The notes below the pieces were generated by a model. It was not told the DNA's origin and made no database searches. It saw nothing but the letters and a program-made list of their open reading frames with translations. From positions 124,001 to 188,000 of the forward strand of contig CAJSZV010000008.1 in the NCBI GenBank assembly GCA_910574345.1: DNA of 64,000 bases, written 5' to 3'. How positions within the stretch are numbered: the first letter of the stretch is position 1; every line of letters starts with the position of its first letter. Made by a program: the position numbers and the translations under genes. Shown here piece after piece: positions 56,360 through 63,011 of this stretch. The stretch comes from Clostridiaceae bacterium. Its GTDB lineage: Bacteria > Bacillota > Clostridia > Lachnospirales > Lachnospiraceae.

Positions 56360-56424
56360 GTGCCAAAATAATGAATGTAATGTGAATTGCTTAATGATGC
56401 TTAAAAAAGAGAAAGGAGACGATG

Positions 56425-57012
56425 ATGGGGAATACTTACGGATACATTCGGGTAAGCAGCTGTGACCAGAACGAAGACAGGCAGTTGATTGCACTGAGAG
56501 AACTTGCCGTTCCGGCCAGGAATATTTTTATGGACAAACAGTCAGGGAAAGATTTTAATCGTCCCGAATATAGAAAAATGGTTCGGAGACTTAAAAAAGA
56601 GGATTTGCTGTATGTCAAAAGCATTGACAGGCTGGGGCGCAATTACACGGAGATCTTGGAACAATGGCGGATTCTGACAAGAGAAAAAGGCGTTGATATC
56701 GTAGTCCTGGACATGCCACTTTTGGATACCAGAAGGGGAAAGGATCTTATGGGCACGTTTTTAAGTGACATTGTTCTGCAGATTCTGTCTTTTGTAGCGG
56801 AGAATGAAAGAAGCAGCATTCATCAGCGCCAGGCCGAGGGGATCGCCGCAGCGAAAGCGAAAGGAGTACAGTTCGGTCGTCCGCTAAAGCCTCTGCCGGA
56901 CAATTTTTACGAGATGTGTCAATTATGGAAGGCTGGGAAAATCACGGGGACAGCCGCTGCAAAAGCCTGCAACATGCCTTTGTCTACCTTTCGGTATCGG
57001 GCCAATTCATGA
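56425..57012 (+). CDS. Small serine recombinase (resolvase/invertase family)
   Basis: A 195-residue serine recombinase. The catalytic Ser is S11 in YGYIRVSSCDQNEDRQ; SIDRLGRNYTEILEQW supplies the active-site Asp-Arg region. The long E helix (about 100-135) leads to a C-terminal helix-turn-helix (ITGTAAAKACNMPLSTFRYR). The length matches resolvases and invertases rather than large phage integrases. Either of two adjacent ATGs can start it (56422 or 56425), just after AAAGGAG. No partner transposase or invertible gene was seen; candidate target palindrome at 57171-57198. It marks the start of the accessory region behind gpsA. Confidence 0.92.
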   Translation: MGNTYGYIRVSSCDQNEDRQLIALRELAVPARNIFMDKQSGKDFNRPEYRKMVRRLKKEDLLYVKSIDRLGRNYTEILEQWRILTREKGVDIVVLDMPLLDTRRGKDLMGTFLSDIVLQILSFVAENERSSIHQRQAEGIAAAKAKGVQFGRPLKPLPDNFYEMCQLWKAGKITGTAAAKACNMPLSTFRYRANS

Positions 57013-57170: not shown

Positions 57171-57198
57171 ATAAAGTGTACGAAAAAGTACACTTTAT
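57171..57198. repeat. Palindrome downstream of the serine recombinase
   Basis: ATAAAGTGTAC-GAAAAA-GTACACTTTAT is a perfect 11-bp inverted repeat. A single half-site-like GTGTACTTTTTTG occurs at 57051. It may be a recombinase site or a regulator operator, or a terminator-like hairpin. Confidence 0.4.
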
Positions 57199-57235
57199 TG
57201 CTATGGGGAAAATCGGAGAATGGGGGCGTGAAAAT

Positions 57236-57721
57236 ATGAGGCATTCCACAAAAAAGCTGGATCTGACCGGTCAGAGGTATGGGAAACTGACGGTTTTGGA
57301 GCCGGCCCCCAATATAGGAACCAAGACAGCGTGGCTCTGTCGCTGCGACTGCGGTCAGGAGACAGTGGTCAGAACCTATCATCTGCGCAGCGGACACACG
57401 GTCAGCTGCGGTTGCATAGTGCCGGAAGGAGCTGGTGCAGGCCTTGGTTGCCTGACCTATGTAGATGGAACCTGTGTGGAAATGCTGAGGGCCAAGACGG
57501 TGAGACGGAATAATACCAGCGGTGTGCCGGGAGTGGACTGGAGAGTTTCCAAAGGGCTGTGGAGAGCTTCCATCTGCTTTAAGGGAAAGCGGTATTATCT
57601 TGGCAGCTACAAAAACTTCGAGGACGCAGTCAAAGCCCGCAGACGGGCGGAGGAAAACATGCATGACCGCTTTTTGAGCGAATTTGCTGCCAAGGCCTCA
57701 CAAAAGGCTGCCGGCAGTTGA
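57236..57721 (+). CDS. AP2-domain DNA-binding protein with zinc-ribbon-like N-terminus
   Basis: A 161-residue protein. The start at ATG 57236 follows GGGGGCG; a further in-frame ATG at 57203 is possible. Residues about 8-60 carry LTGQRYGKLTVLEPAPNIGT and the cysteine pattern CRCDCG ... SCGC, probably a metal-binding fold. Residues about 85-145 form an AP2/ERF-type three-stranded sheet: NTSGVPGVDWRVSKGLWRAS, then RYYLGSYKNFEDAVKARRRA. Bacterial AP2 proteins are typical of phage or mobile homing-nuclease-related genes, though here no HNH domain is visible. Function unknown, probably DNA binding. Codon use and the adjacent recombinase support acquisition by transfer. Confidence 0.82.
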   Translation: MRHSTKKLDLTGQRYGKLTVLEPAPNIGTKTAWLCRCDCGQETVVRTYHLRSGHTVSCGCIVPEGAGAGLGCLTYVDGTCVEMLRAKTVRRNNTSGVPGVDWRVSKGLWRASICFKGKRYYLGSYKNFEDAVKARRRAEENMHDRFLSEFAAKASQKAAGS

Positions 57722-57928
57722 TCCCCACAGGCAGCAGGCCAAGGGGGCATGTTTGCGGCGCGAAGCGAATGCTTTAGAGTATGTCCATTATCCTGCCTTA
57801 ATCCGGCGGGTATTTGACATACGTGGACAGCCGCCAAGTCCGGAAAGTTCGGCAGGGCCGGTTGTGTTCACAAGAAAAAGAGGGAGAGGGGGAAAGGTAT
57901 GCTTCAGGGAAGAATGCCTATGGCATGC

Positions 57929-57958
57929 CCCGCCGTCAACTGCGTCGATGACGGCGGG
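57929..57958 (+). other. Strong hairpin upstream of the riboswitch pair
   Basis: Perfect 10-bp stem CCCGCCGTCA / TGACGGCGGG with a 10-base loop, ending 5 bases before the first aptamer. No T tract follows; it may insulate or compete with the first aptamer's outer stem. Confidence 0.5.
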
Positions 57959-57963
57959 AGCAG

Positions 57964-58061
57964 AATCTGATATGACGCAGGGGCAAACCATGGGAAACCG
58001 TGGGGCAGCAAAGCTATGGGAACTAAGGTATCGTTCCGGACGACACGATGCTATGTTAGCC
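57964..58061 (+). promoter_or_regulatory. Cyclic-di-GMP-I (GEMM) riboswitch aptamer, first copy
   Basis: The conserved GEMM-I core is readable: ACGCAGGGGCAAACC, the P2 arm closed by a GAAA tetraloop (CCATGG-GAAA-CCGTGG), then GCAGCAAAGC (tetraloop-receptor side), GGGAACTAAGG, and the P3 return strand ACGATGCTATGTTAGCC. The order and spacing follow the known Vc2 type. Boundaries are approximate; the outer P1 stem is weak or remote in this copy. Confidence 0.85.
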
Positions 58062-58176
58062 CGGCTGCTGGAACAGGGGCAACCCGTCTGAAAAGACGGC
58101 TTCGCAAAGCCAGGGGACTAAAGCATAAAATCCGGGAAAATCATCCGGAGAGTATGCCATGTCGGCCCAGCCGCCG
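58062..58176 (+). promoter_or_regulatory. Cyclic-di-GMP-I (GEMM) riboswitch aptamer, second copy
   Basis: Second aptamer directly after the first: ACAGGGGCAACCC, P2 CCGTCT-GAAA-AGACGG, TTCGCAAAGCC, GGGGACTAAAGC, a P3 arm capped around 58130-58145 (TCCGG / CCGGA), and the return strand TATGCCATGTCGGCC. P1 pairs 58062-58071 with 58167-58176 with one mismatch. Its 5' P1 strand begins at the immediate end of the first aptamer. It lies 47 bases before the ATG of the surface protein. Confidence 0.88.
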
Positions 58177-58223
58177 GATACTTTGCATCCGAACGATGAT
58201 TTAGCAAAGAAAGGAAGATTTAT

Positions 58224-61142
58224 ATGAAGTTAAAAAAAACCTTAAAAAGACTGCGCAGACGCGGCTTTGCTCTGCTGCTTGCCGCATTGGTAAGTATCAA
58301 TGCTGTGCCGTGTACTGTTTTTGGTGCGGTAGATGAGGTGGATACCGTAAGCGAAGCTTTATCCGGCGAGGATTCGGACGAAGGCTCTGAGTCATGGGAA
58401 AGCACAGATACAGAATCTGCGTCGGAAGGAGACAATACCGGTGCTGATGCAGACGCAGAGGCGAATACGGACACAGAGGCAGATGACGGCAGTGACAAGG
58501 AAGTGACTGATACGGATTCTGACTCCGGTGACAGCACGGATGCCGGGACCGATACCGGATCTGGCGACGGCGCGGAGACTGACGGCGCTTCTGACCTTGA
58601 AGACAGCGCTGAGAGAGAGCCTGGTTCTGATTCCGATAGCAGTACAGAGAGAGAGCCCGGTTCTGATTCTGATGGCAGTACAGAGGCAGAGCCCGGTTCT
58701 GATTCTGATGGCAGTACAGAGGCAGAGTCCGGTTCTGATTCCGATGGCAGTACAGAGACAGAGCCCGGTTCTGATTCCGAAGGCAGTACAGAGGCAGAGC
58801 CCGGTTCTGATTCCGAAGGAAGCACCGAGACAGACGCCGGGTCGGAAGATCTTGGGGAAACGGATTCTGATTCCGATGGCAATACCGGGACCGAAACGGA
58901 TACGGACTCTGGCAATGACGGCAATGCAGATGCGGATATGGATAATAACGAAAATGCTGACATGAATGAAGAGGGCAATGCAGAAACGGATGTAAATAAG
59001 GAGACGGACGGTGCTGACGGGAAGAATGATACGGAAGCAAAGGCGGATGATAAAGAGAATTCCCATATTTTATCTGACGGAAATGTTTTGGATACAAAAC
59101 TCCCTGAAGATGCGAAATTGCCTGAAAAGCCGGAAATCCCCGTTGTTCCTGCAGAACCTTTGCCTGATGAAGTTCAGACATTTCTGGATGCAGTAAGCAA
59201 TATTCCCGAAATTACAGGGGATAATCTGGAAGAGTATATTGAAAAGATCAGCGCTGCAATTGATGCTTATGCTGCGCTTCTGGAAGCCGGGCTGGAAGAT
59301 TATGAAGGCGTGGCCGCTGCTTTGCAAAGGGCGGAGCTGGCCTATGGGGCAGCCGCCGAGACGTTGGGCTTGGGGACTGCGACATTCGCAAGTGAAGCAG
59401 AAAAGGTCATTACGGGCGAAGGCATGGAAATTGTTAAACAAAGCGGTGTAACAATCAATCCAGGTGCAGCCGCCCCAAGTGGCAATATAGGAAGGCCTGG
59501 AAATTTAAACAATTATGGCGGGACAATTGACAAAAAGGTTGAGGATGATGGATTTTATTATCGTTGTCCGACGAATACTATCGTGGGCAAGAATTGCGGC
59601 CATGTTGTTGCCCAGTACATTCCTGACGAATATTGCAATATAACTACTACACTCAGTAATGGAGCTATTATTGATAATGTGAATTATACAGTGGGGACTT
59701 TTCCTGGCACCCAAAATCCATGTATAAAACTCAATTATGGCAGTGTACAGCCAGGCACAACAAAAGTGGAGATGGAGTATTATGTCATTTACAATGTAAA
59801 GCATGAGTCTGGATATTGTACTTGCGGACGATATACCACTATCCCTTCCGATTATTCCTGGCATAAATACGATGTTACAGTTAATGCCGATTATATCTTG
59901 CGCTATGACCTTGACGGAGGTACAGGCAATATCGGTTCAACAACAAAAACCGTTCCCAAAACCTCTGAAAACTTAACGATTACAAAACAGGAACCGACAC
60001 GTGACGGCTATAATTTTGTCGGATGGGAAGTAAAAGGACCGGATGGGAGTACAACCGTTTATAAAGCCAATGAAGTCATTACTTTGAATTGGGAAAAAGG
60101 CCCAACTGTTGAGCAGACATTAGTGGCGAAGTGGGAGAAGATCGCTGAGGGAGATGCGGATGCGGACGCCGATGATGATGCGGATAGTGACGCGGATGCG
60201 GATGCGGATAGTGACGCGGATGCGGATGCGGATAGTGACGCGGATGCGGATGCGGACAGCGATGCGGATAGTGACGCGGATGCGGATGCAGATAGTGATG
60301 CGGATGCCGACAGTGATGCAGATGCGGATGCAGATAGTGATGCGGATAGTGACGCGGATGCGGATGCGGATAGTGACGCGGATGCGGATGCAGATAGTGA
60401 TGCGGATGCCGACAGTGATGCAGATGCGGATGCGGATAGTGACGCGGATGCGGATGCGGATAGTGACGCGGATGCGGATGCGGACAGCGATGCGGATAGT
60501 GACGCGGATGCGGATGCGGACAGCGATGCGGATGCCGACAGTGATGCAGATGCGGATGCAGATAGTGATGCGGATAGTGACGCGGATGCGGATGCGGATG
60601 CGGATAGTGACGCGGATGCGGATGCGGACAGTGATGCGGATAGTGACGCGGATGCGGATGCAGATAGTGATGCGGATGCCGACAGTGATGCAGATGCGGA
60701 TAGTGACACCGATGCGGATAGTGACGCCGATGCGGACGCCGACAGTGACGCCGATGCGGACGCGGACAGCGATGCGGATAGTGACACGGATGCAGATGCC
60801 GACAGTGATGCGGACACCGATTCAGACTCCGATTCCGGCAGTGATACAGAGACACCGCCGACGAATATGTATACAAGAGTTGTATATGAAAGCAGCAGTG
60901 ACGAAGATGTGGTTCCCACTGTAATTCCTCTTGCAGCCATTCCGAATCAAAATGTTCCTTTAGCGGAAATTCCTGATGAGGCTGTGCCCCTGGCAATGAT
61001 TATTGACGAGGAGGTTCCTTTGGCAGGTCTTCCCAAAACAGGGGATACTTCCCAGGCATCAGGGCTTCTTGCACTGATTTCCGGAATGCTCCTTGCCCTG
61101 GTGGCTCTGGACGGAAAACGGCACAAAGAAAATCAGATGTAA
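58224..61142 (+). CDS. LPKTG-anchored surface protein with long acidic repeats
   Basis: A 972-residue exported protein. The signal peptide is about 1-37 ([20 protein letters not shown]). Residues 38-310 are extremely acidic and include six 12-residue repeats (130-201, type E[11 protein letters not shown]). Residues 314-385 are helical, rich in Ala, Glu and Leu. Residues 391-550 form an unrecognised domain with cysteines (RCPTN, GKNCGH, YCTCG). Residues about 555-637 form an InlB/Listeria-Bacteroides-type repeat (DLDGGTGN ... GYNFVGWEV). Residues 644-875 are Asp-Ala/Asp-Ser repeats. A linker with VPLA/IPLA units leads to LPKTG (936-940), a hydrophobic helix and KRHK, a sortase signal. This suggests a stalk-borne adhesin or matrix protein switched by c-di-GMP through the two upstream riboswitches. 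No sortase gene is in view. Confidence 0.9.
58611..58826 (+). repeat. Six tandem 36-bp repeats in the surface protein gene
   Basis: Each unit encodes E-(R/A/T)-E-(P/S)-G-S-D-S-(D/E)-(G/S)-S-T; a partial unit follows to about 58850. The DNA copies are more than 80 percent alike by eye, consistent with recent expansion. Confidence 0.85.
60153..60846 (+). repeat. Asp-Ala/Asp-Ser low-complexity array (about 690 bp)
   Basis: Built of hexamers GATGCG, GACGCG, GATAGT and GACAGT arranged as higher-order DADADS and DADS blocks. The array has no stop codon in several frames on both strands. Length is likely to vary between strains and short-read assemblies may have collapsed it. Confidence 0.9.
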
Positions 61143-61241: not shown

Positions 61242-63011
61242 ATGAGTAAAGATAAAAGAAAAAAGATATGTTTCATCAGCACGGCGGCACTATTCGGTGT
61301 GGGGGCAGCGATTTTTTTGTTTCTCCATTTTGGCGGACACACGAAGCCCGGCATAACATCCTATAAAGAAAAATGTTCCCTGTTGGAAGAAACCGTACTG
61401 ACAGAGGAGAATGAAAGGTTTCTGGGAAAAAGTCCTGCCGGCGGACAGGCCGGACATGCAGTATTTCTTTCTGTCTGCAATACGGCTGAGCGGGCCAGCG
61501 TATTCTGCGGAACCGGGCCGGATCTTTTGTCTGCCTGGAAACATGCGGATGCCCAGGTAATGGCCTTTTTAGAGAACAGCAACTTTGACCCTGTTTGGGT
61601 AAAAGCCGATGTGGTCTTCTTTTCCGATACCCTTGAGGAAGAAGAATTCATTCAGAAAATTCTGGCCGCACGTCACGAATTTTACCGGTATGGCGTGGCT
61701 TTTGATAAACATTTTCAGACAGCGCTTTTGGAGGCAGAGTTAAACGGAGCAAAGATTTATGACTATGACAACGGCGGCATTCAGATAGAGGAACTGAACC
61801 GATATTTGGAGAAAGCTGACAGGAAGCCTTTGGAAACTCTTCCTCCGGTCTATACGGTCTTCCGGTGTGCGGGGTGGCTCTGTGATGAAAATAAACATGT
61901 GTATGAACTGAGTCGGGACGGTCTGGAATATGGAAGGAGGCACATAAGCCCCATTGACAAAGACTATGCCAGACAATTGATTGTGAATGCCTCATCCTTT
62001 CTCATGGATCAGGTGAAGGACGACGGTTCTTTCATTTACGGAATCTATCCGCGTTTTGACAGGGAGATTGATAACTACAATATCGTACGCCACGCCAGTA
62101 CTCTGTGGTCCTTAATCTGCAGATACCGCCTGGAACCGGAAAAAGAGCTGGAGGAGAAGATTGACATGACTATTGATTACATGCTTGCCAAAGTAGTCTA
62201 TGACTCTCATGGGCGTGCCTTTTTATATGAAGAGAAAGACGACGAAATCAAGTTAGGCGGCTGCGGAATTGCCGTAGTTGCCCTGACGGAGTACATGGAT
62301 GTATTTCAGAGCGACAAATATGAAGAGGTGTGCCATGATCTGGGGAACGGAATTTTATCTATGATGGACCAGTCCACAGGAGAGTACTATCATGTTCTCA
62401 ATGGGGATTTTACCAGAAAGGAAGAATTCCGCACGGTTTACTATGACGGCGAGGCCACATTTGCCTTATGCCGGCTTTATGGCCTTACAAAAGATCCCCA
62501 GTGGCTTCAGGGGGCGAAAAAAGGAGTGGACCATTTTATTCAGGAGGACTACACCAGATACAAGGATCATTGGGTAGCATACAGTATGAACGAGATTACA
62601 AAATATGTGCCGGATTGTGAAGAATACTATGATTTTGCACTGAAAAACGCCCAGGTGAATCTGGAGACAATCTATAATCGGGATACCACTTATCATACCT
62701 ATCTGGAACTTTTAATGGCAACCTTTGAGACGTACTGCCGGATGACGGAACATGGCTGCAGGCCCAAGGACTTTGATCTGGAGATGTTTCTGGATACCAT
62801 CTATACAAGAGCAGACCGCCAGCTAAACGGTTATTTTTATCCGGAGTATGCCATGTATATGAGAAATCCTCAGAGAATCTTAGATACATTTATGGTACGT
62901 CACGACGGATACCGGGTCCGAATTGATGATGTACAGCATAACATTGGCGGGTATTATCTCTATTTTAAAAATTATGACAAGTTGGTATCCATGGGATTGA
63001 GAGAGAGATAA
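61242..63011 (+). CDS. Membrane-anchored extracellular protein of unknown function, (alpha/alpha)-toroid-like
   Basis: A 589-residue protein with a short Lys/Arg-rich N-terminus and one membrane segment (about 9-28), so the bulk is outside. Residues about 30-190 form a mixed alpha/beta domain. Residues about 220-580 show a run of paired helices with Trp, Tyr and His-rich turns (FIYGIYPRFDREIDNYNIVR, HASTLWSL, TVYYDGEATFALCRLYGLT, DPQWLQGAKKGVDHF). These look like six-hairpin glycosidase or epimerase toroids. I do not recognise the family. It follows the c-di-GMP-controlled surface gene by 100 bases on the same strand, with a terminator between, so a link to surface polysaccharide or to that protein is only contextual. 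The start at ATG 61242 follows GGAG 9 bases upstream. Confidence 0.75.
   Translation: MSKDKRKKICFISTAALFGVGAAIFLFLHFGGHTKPGITSYKEKCSLLEETVLTEENERFLGKSPAGGQAGHAVFLSVCNTAERASVFCGTGPDLLSAWKHADAQVMAFLENSNFDPVWVKADVVFFSDTLEEEEFIQKILAARHEFYRYGVAFDKHFQTALLEAELNGAKIYDYDNGGIQIEELNRYLEKADRKPLETLPPVYTVFRCAGWLCDENKHVYELSRDGLEYGRRHISPIDKDYARQLIVNASSFLMDQVKDDGSFIYGIYPRFDREIDNYNIVRHASTLWSLICRYRLEPEKELEEKIDMTIDYMLAKVVYDSHGRAFLYEEKDDEIKLGGCGIAVVALTEYMDVFQSDKYEEVCHDLGNGILSMMDQSTGEYYHVLNGDFTRKEEFRTVYYDGEATFALCRLYGLTKDPQWLQGAKKGVDHFIQEDYTRYKDHWVAYSMNEITKYVPDCEEYYDFALKNAQVNLETIYNRDTTYHTYLELLMATFETYCRMTEHGCRPKDFDLEMFLDTIYTRADRQLNGYFYPEYAMYMRNPQRILDTFMVRHDGYRVRIDDVQHNIGGYYLYFKNYDKLVSMGLRER

Follow-up and report, generated by a model that had tools for sequence, protein, structure and literature searches.

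Overall organization of the locus

The window, which is the whole 64 000-nucleotide stretch of DNA that was analysed, carries at 58224–61142 the regulated gene, coding for a Ser-Asp-repeat, sortase-anchored (LPKTG) protein of 972 residues, and two c-di-GMP-I aptamers in tandem precede it; the gene, the RNA elements and the AP2-like gene described below are on the plus strand. The original prediction of a sortase-anchored repeat protein downstream of the RNA agrees with the domain search, in which LPXTG_double matches the end of the product at 69.0 bits (cut-off 48) and a List_Bact repeat is also present. The N-terminus of the product is signal-like by eye and is not called by the strict script used for secretion signals. 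Directly upstream, as context outside the RNA, lies the gene for an AP2-like protein (57176–57721; PF00847, 23.9 bits, under the cut-off of 33.3). Downstream of the surface protein there is an open reading frame of 589 residues (61242–63011) with no Pfam match at an E-value of 0.001.

The tandem aptamers

A covariance search with RF01051 (gathering cut-off 35 bits) places aptamer 1 at 57972–58072 (54.2 bits, E-value 8.3 × 10−8) and aptamer 2 at 58073–58178 (40.8 bits, E-value 1.6 × 10−4), confirming the two GEMM-I cores in tandem that had been proposed from the letters; in the whole-genome search the pair scores 54.2 and 48.2 bits. A model of our own, R1, built from 38 aptamers of loci that bear the platform described below, gives 77.6 bits for aptamer 1, whose sequence is in its training set, and 59.9 bits for aptamer 2, which is outside it. 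In the R1 alignment 95.8% of the cells are paired, compared with 84.3% after shuffling, and 14 of the 22 pairs show changes on both sides. The GGGGCAA(A/C)CC start, GAAA-capped P2 and GCAAAGC that had been noticed earlier are found in both copies, with the core GCAAAG at 58008–58013 in aptamer 1 and 58104–58109 in aptamer 2 and with C92 (Vc2 numbering) at 58068 and 58174, respectively. The ligand-contact letters of the class, which we take to be G20, A47 and C92, are carried by both aptamers. The window pair are c-di-GMP-I (RF01051) aptamers, and ligand binding is predicted for them. A c-AMP-GMP or dual-ligand reading of the window was rejected, since GEMM-Ib needs A20 and both aptamers have G20.

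Seven c-di-GMP-I aptamers are listed by the search of the genome (5.6 Mb in 106 contigs, completeness 97%), every one of them in an array: three on contig C13, two on contig C1 and two in the window. The same search found no c-di-GMP-I aptamers in 14 control genomes, so that matches by chance are not an issue. With six GGDEF matches in its genome, the host plausibly synthesizes c-di-GMP.

A probable shared platform at the ribosome-binding site

A hairpin, S1 (CGGAU/AUCCG, loop ACUUUGC; 58175–58191, with arms at 58175–58179 and 58187–58191), lies directly 3′ of aptamer 2. Its loop strand CUUUGC (58181–58186) is complementary to a GCAAAG (58204–58209) that abuts the Shine–Dalgarno sequence AAAGGAAG (58210–58217; start codon at 58224), and the two strands would form a second helix, S2. 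The earlier statement that neither a terminator nor an anti-RBS stem is obvious after the second copy stands for the terminator, but not for the anti-RBS stem, for which 58175–58209 is a candidate element. No plus-strand terminator-like site was found within 57862–58250, and terminator control was rejected on this ground. An Rfam search of 57700–58300 at E-values up to 1 matched only c-di-GMP-I and its GGC variant; the platform and the 5′ hairpin HP0 described below thus correspond to no listed Rfam family.

All three tandem arrays of the genome end alike, with GCCGGAUACUUUGC(A/G)UCCG, a spacer and GCAAAG, which is immediately followed by a purine-rich Shine–Dalgarno sequence. With at most one mismatch the 15-base motif occurs in the genome only at these three array sites; allowing two mismatches adds nine sites, compared with four for a reversed control pattern. 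The window array combines several aptamers with one platform, as in the glycine type, and lacks a separate platform after each aptamer: the linker from C92 of aptamer 1 to G21 of aptamer 2 is 10 nt long (58069–58078) and contains no plus-strand terminator-like site. One translational platform therefore appears to be shared by both window aptamers, as also suggested by the usual distance of 9–12 nt between neighbouring aptamers in the arrays. The letters of the GCAAAG at the ribosome-binding site are identical to those of the aptamer core, suggesting that the two compete for the loop CUUUGC.

A six-pair helix with a one-nucleotide L1 is the classic geometry of an H-type pseudoknot. Over 98 distinct platforms, about 80 of which were gathered by a pattern requiring CUUUGC and GCAAAG, L1 is 1 nt long in 90 and 2 nt in eight, L3 measures 4–14 nt and, in 95, no more than 4 nt separate GCAAAG from the start of a Shine–Dalgarno-like run, so that the parts (a stem of 5 bp, L1 of 1–2 nt, a second helix of 6 bp and L3 of 4–14 nt) fit this fold. 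The S1 pair that is free of the pattern is standard in 87 of the 98, compared with 81.4 on average after shuffling; a value as high is reached by 19 of 10 000 shuffles, relatedness being uncorrected. S2 yields no covariation because its six letters are constant across 22 arrays picked by their aptamers, an invariance that is expected if CUUUGC has to match GCAAAG both at the ribosome-binding site and in the core. The core of the last aptamer is GCAAAA or ACAAAG in 14 of 80 arrays in which the loop is still CUUUGC, which counts against competition between core and loop.

Distribution among relatives

A 19-base form of the motif occurs in three of 397 genomes sampled within the family, compared with c-di-GMP-I aptamers in 110 of 299, indicating that the platform is a trait of a lineage and not a property of the aptamer class. 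A scan of named genomes for the motif together with GCAAAG gave at least 118 stretches (L071–L188), the record titles of those listed being mostly Oscillospiraceae, Lachnospiraceae and other Clostridia; the first 80 were studied in depth. With the window and four earlier loci these make up 88 motif places (L084 duplicates L052), 81 of which have an aptamer core upstream by regular expression. Among the seven others, L071, L083, L094 and L118 are chance matches, L116 and L139 lie at contig ends, and L141 contains two aptamers detected by R1. The last 38 loci of the scan (L151–L188) comprise 36 new places, 32 with both core and Shine–Dalgarno sequence and four (L168, L171, L175 and L186) with neither. 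All eight places of the listed scan that are without an aptamer and away from contig ends resemble chance matches, four of them in records of Methylobacterium, Treponema, a Spirochaetaceae and a Porphyromonadaceae. By this measure the pattern of motif plus GCAAAG is specific.

An aptamer-only search was made of 11 other genomes, which had themselves been reached via the motif but whose arrays were not chosen by platform. It gave 75 matches, mostly arrayed, from which 23 regions were taken, the rest falling in loci already in the set. A core was found by regular expression in 22 of the 23 regions and all 22 end in the platform, loop CUUUGC included; eight of them (L219, L220, L221, L225, L227, L230, L240 and L241) also appear in the pattern scan. 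L222 has an aptamer match of 34 bits and no core by regular expression. CUUUGC and GCAAAG are kept in L238 with an altered S1 stem, which counts against a conserved platform stem.

Array size and the specificity position

R1 matched 87 times in one set of 44 sources and 66 times in another of 40. Its default filters and overlaps drop aptamers (21 of 87 places have no chained match and 33 have one), and array sizes were therefore taken from the regular expression. By this count, 98 distinct arrays hold one (18), two (56), three (18), four (4) or five (2) aptamers, the 18 single-aptamer arrays including undercounts. Where R1 resolves neighbouring aptamers, linkers from C92 to the next G21 are 9–21 nt long, mostly 9–12 nt, with two exceptions of 32 and 52 nt; they are measured between non-overlapping matches only, so that shorter ones escape.

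Position 20 differs with the place of an aptamer in its array. G is present in 77 of 80 first aptamers, and the 80 last aptamers have A in 40, G in 25, C in 14 and T in one (Fisher p = 3 × 10−19 for first versus last, uncorrected for relatedness). The 32 middle aptamers have G in 20, A in 11 and C in one, and the 18 singles have G in ten and A in eight. We know of no ligand for an aptamer with C at this specificity position, as seen in the 14 last aptamers. A at the specificity position of the last aptamer in 40 of 80 multi-aptamer arrays resembles GEMM-Ib (c-AMP-GMP), from which the window differs in having G in both aptamers. The survey passages of PMC9481103 associate G at position 20 with c-di-GMP and A with c-AMP-GMP. 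A helix C92-UAAU…AUUA-G21 (with TGAT/ATCA variants) is clear in the linker of a subset of arrays, and A20 in this subset can be explained by such a helix (C92–G21, U93–A20) instead of a change of ligand. The window is without the pairing, and the helix was set aside as a general mechanism.

The 5′ hairpin and a candidate leader reading frame

Upstream of aptamer 1 lies HP0, a GC-rich hairpin of 10 bp with a 10-nt loop and fully (100%) complementary arms (57929–57958). Position 57929, at which the original prediction started the tandem riboswitch, belongs to the 5′ arm of this separate hairpin. The loop strand CUGCGUC (57940–57946) is complementary to GACGCAG (57974–57980), 2 nt before G21 of aptamer 1, and the predicted duplex, PK1, has an energy of −13.6 kcal mol−1. 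A hairpin of the HP0 type reaches the score used in 70 of 94 arrays; the 24 below it were left out. For 69 distinct loci, close relatives among them, pairing of the HP0 loop with the 18 nt before aptamer 1 averages −8.68 kcal mol−1 when matched and −6.14 kcal mol−1 when mismatched, and none of 10 000 permutations reaches the matched value; the control of the 18 nt further upstream gives −4.57 kcal mol−1 in the 19 loci that have them. Runs of at least five pairs occur in 59 of the 69 loci, compared with 46% of mismatched pairs. In about two-thirds of the loci the end of the PK1 strand is 2–5 nt away from G21, the place expected for the end of a P1 strand. These comparisons suggest that the HP0 loop pairs with the flank of aptamer 1 at the site that P1 would otherwise occupy.

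A Shine–Dalgarno-like purine run, recognized from its sequence (57882–57897), precedes a candidate leader open reading frame, MLQGRMPMACPAVNCVDDGGSRI (57899–57970), which starts 30 nt before HP0, as in many relatives. A Shine–Dalgarno-led start 12–48 nt upstream of the hairpin is present in 61 of the 70 hairpin loci. Relative to the leader start, CCNCCN with TGG, GGN or GAY as the next codon is in frame 0 in 36 cases, in frame 1 in four and in frame 2 in none (binomial p = 1 × 10−13, near-identical loci being retained). Leader frames were found for 84 of the 94 arrays and 59 of these contain Pro-Pro. The distance from the end of the codon pair to the hairpin is exactly 9 nt in 29 of the 59 and 4–11 nt in another 21, whereas the pair lies elsewhere in the other nine. 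No Pro-Pro is present in the leader frames of the three arrays of this genome, the window included, and the Pro-Pro layer is thus one seen in relatives. From the passages of the two sources concerned, PPW, G/PP/G and D/PP/D are strong stalls in Escherichia coli (PMC5811046) and, among three motifs in Bacillus subtilis, PPW depends most strongly on EF-P (PMC5885033). PPW does not occur in PMC11611912 or PMC4176338, nor in PMC8129111, which instead has passages on codon pairs.

Downstream proteins and neighbouring genes

Products shorter than 30 residues were excluded, and a signal-like hydrophobic stretch was called by the strict script in 72 of the 80 remaining downstream products. Seven of the other eight, including that of the window, are signal-like by eye; the eighth, that of L101, comes from a short frame that is broken or wrongly started. 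Domains in the 29 products scanned out of 45 complete ones include LPXTG_double (14), SLH (11) and MucBP (4). Most of the downstream proteins examined look secreted. The secretion signal K-R-G-L-A-L-x-L-x-L-x-M-C-L-x-M-L-x-x-x-A-F-A is, by eye, common to reading frames downstream of the arrays, whose bodies are unrelated; a shared signal before unrelated bodies suggests the reshuffling of leader-plus-signal cassettes.

The other two arrays of the genome also precede large surface-type proteins. At L008:5647–5895 (G000 C13:35639–35893) a triple c-di-GMP-I array with the same platform stands before a 1214-residue VPRTG surface protein, which is followed by a sortase-like gene (by eye), the stretch lying between rpoC-like and ribosomal-protein genes. 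Behind the C1 array, L009:7189–11910 encodes a 1573-residue protein that consists mostly of Ser-rich SESxSTSxSQ repeats and has an LPKMG-type end; a tyrosine-recombinase-like gene (by eye) is present at L009:5102–5995.

Of 94 arrays, the window counted, 29 are preceded by a same-strand homologue of the AP2-like gene, and the match ends within 200 nt of aptamer 1 in 24 of the 29. Among the 65 arrays for which 700 nt or more of upstream sequence exist, 22 have the homologue. The genome has four AP2-like matches, one of them partial. A second copy, at L243:2509–3018, is directly upstream of a GGDEF gene (a putative diguanylate cyclase). Each of these two AP2-like genes is preceded by a serine recombinase gene (window 56422–57012 and L243:1633–2280; 68% identical), so that one recombinase and AP2-like module stands before a c-di-GMP array and the other before a putative diguanylate cyclase. 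Related recombinases occur upstream of five other arrays (L142, L085, L130, L079 and L100).

Predicted folding and regulation

Each of the three GCAAAG copies in the window gives −7.9 kcal mol−1 with the platform loop. In nested folding of 76 last-aptamer leaders the mean probability is 0.37 for pairing of the loop with the core, 0.38 for pairing with the strand at the ribosome-binding site and 0.085 for S1 alone. The rarity of S1 counts against the platform stem within the limits of nested folding, which cannot model a pseudoknot. The computed ligand-free fold of the window pairs 58061–58071 with 58167–58177 at ten of 11 positions; the helix ties up both C92s, that of aptamer 2 lying in the 3′ strand together with the CGG of the platform hairpin. 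This pairing of the 3′ ends is in line with the original prediction, which had suspected a mutual influence of the two folds. The prediction had also named 58062–58071 as the 5′ strand of the second P1; the segment instead holds the P3 strand and C92 of aptamer 1. A canonical P1 of aptamer 2 from this segment was rejected, since the computed fold pairs it with 58167–58176 in a competing helix. Across 56 arrays, inter-aptamer pairing averages −13.4 kcal mol−1 for matched and −12.6 kcal mol−1 for mismatched strands (3 of 10 000); the pairing is strong in many of the arrays, but the small difference gives weak family support for such a helix.

The favoured explanation, which we put slightly above even, is a c-di-GMP-I array acting through one shared translational platform that is OFF when all aptamers are bound. 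With little c-di-GMP, the loop CUUUGC would be caught by free GCAAAG cores, or 58061–58071 would pair with 58167–58177, or both, leaving the ribosome-binding site open. Binding of c-di-GMP would lock the aptamer cores and 3′ ends, whereupon the hairpin and its pseudoknot with GCAAAG could form beside the Shine–Dalgarno sequence and translation would fall. Any one free aptamer could hold the gene on, making a sharp OFF switch for which every aptamer must be bound, and at the 5′ end the HP0 loop would pair with the flank of aptamer 1 in place of P1. The OFF direction is the least certain step and is held with modest confidence. In the computed ligand-free fold of the window CUUUGC pairs with the strand at the ribosome-binding site and four Shine–Dalgarno bases pair with the coding region, both at odds with the OFF prediction for the ligand-free state.

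This fold, with CUUUGC on the GCAAAG beside the Shine–Dalgarno sequence, is instead what would be expected of the main rival, in which the same platform has the opposite sign: the helix of loop and ribosome-binding strand would be OFF by default and c-di-GMP would free the site, giving an ON switch. The downstream products, with their SLH, MucBP and LPXTG_double domains, resemble surface proteins, and surface proteins of such kinds are often promoted by c-di-GMP. The triple tandem of B. thuringiensis, which in the relevant passages of PMC4759541 is ON before surface-protein genes, likewise speaks for this sign and counts against the OFF reading. However, the hairpin starts at position 93, right behind C92, so that it has no obvious competition with ligand binding, and no conserved structure was found through which binding would open the site; we regard an ON switch as possible but on the improbable side. 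Two independent c-di-GMP-I riboswitches, each with its own platform and together pseudo-cooperative, would accord with the 347 doublets and 12 triplets apparently tabulated under multiple expression platforms in the part of PMC9481103 concerned and with an excerpt of PMC12452182, in which every unit of a c-di-GMP tandem is described as an aptamer with a platform of its own. The usual linkers of 9–12 nt, the single conserved platform per array and the lack of a plus-strand terminator-like site, whether in the linker or from the end of aptamer 2 to the start codon, make such a pair very improbable.

A further possibility, compatible with both the OFF and the ON reading, adds a second input to c-di-GMP control of the ribosome-binding site: a ribosome pausing on the leader frame would open HP0 and PK1 and so modulate aptamer 1. 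The frame bias of Pro-Pro motifs towards the Shine–Dalgarno-led start, their position at 9 nt or 4–11 nt before HP0 and the stalling at PPW, G/PP/G and D/PP/D described above favour a composite leader of this kind. Against it, all three arrays of this genome are without Pro-Pro in their leader frames and the HP0 arm constrains some of the codons after the motif; we regard a composite leader, too, as possible but on the improbable side. A wider scheme, to which we give somewhat less credence still, would make these arrays multi-sensor translation gates in a large group of Clostridia. In it, a leader that can stall ribosomes at Pro-Pro-X would set the 5′ pseudoknot on a first aptamer of the c-di-GMP type. 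The last aptamer, which often differs at the specificity position, might respond to a different dinucleotide or serve purely as a decoy, and all cores would compete with the GCAAAG mimic at the ribosome-binding site for one loop.

Comparison with known systems

Small H-type pseudoknots beside or over the Shine–Dalgarno sequence control translation in preQ1 and SAM-II riboswitches. There the pseudoknot is the ligand-binding fold, whereas that of the window would be a platform downstream of separate aptamers. Tandem glycine riboswitches, as outlined in PMC4759541, also have two homologous aptamers and one expression platform, but belong to another aptamer class with another ligand. In the survey data of PMC9481103, tandem c-di-GMP-I riboswitches outnumber tandems of every other class, with 347 doublets and 12 triplets, which may include arrays of the window kind. 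Bc3-5 of B. thuringiensis consists, in the sections of PMC4759541 that treat it, of complete riboswitches with one terminator each that are ON with c-di-GMP. The window shares with Bc3-5 the same aptamer class in tandem and surface-protein genes downstream (PMC4759541, PMC9481103) and differs in having a single non-terminator platform at the ribosome-binding site instead of a terminator per unit. A sharpened response is reported, in passages of PMC4759541 and PMC9481103, for c-di-GMP-I tandems with their own terminators; this precedent is not directly transferable to near-abutting aptamers with one shared translational platform. The mgtL/mgtA leader of Salmonella (a Mg2+ riboswitch, with EF-P) likewise has a short proline-bearing reading frame inside a structured sensor leader, as excerpted from PMC6460261, but responds to another ligand by transcription attenuation, and the window frame is without the Pro-Pro of an mgtL-like leader. 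Searches of the open-licence PMC literature turned up no account of the platform, of the 5′ pseudoknot or of a leader frame, Pro-Pro or other, combined with c-di-GMP riboswitches. The shared-platform arrangement differs from the tandem c-di-GMP-I riboswitches found in print.

Biological implications

If the favoured explanation is right, the array works as a logic device made of RNA, with a platform that mimics the array itself in that the strand at the ribosome-binding site copies the aptamer core. The natural series of one to five aptamers per platform bears on how the number of aptamers sets sharpness, and the platform is a searchable signature for such sets of surface proteins. Many records with the platform take their names from gut species or gut samples, which suggests that its hosts are gut bacteria. 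Were the multi-sensor scheme to hold, translation of surface proteins would depend on c-di-GMP, on translation speed and possibly on a second nucleotide. With the favoured explanation, an entire set of secreted surface proteins in Lachnospiraceae, Oscillospiraceae and their relatives could have its translation governed by one second messenger.
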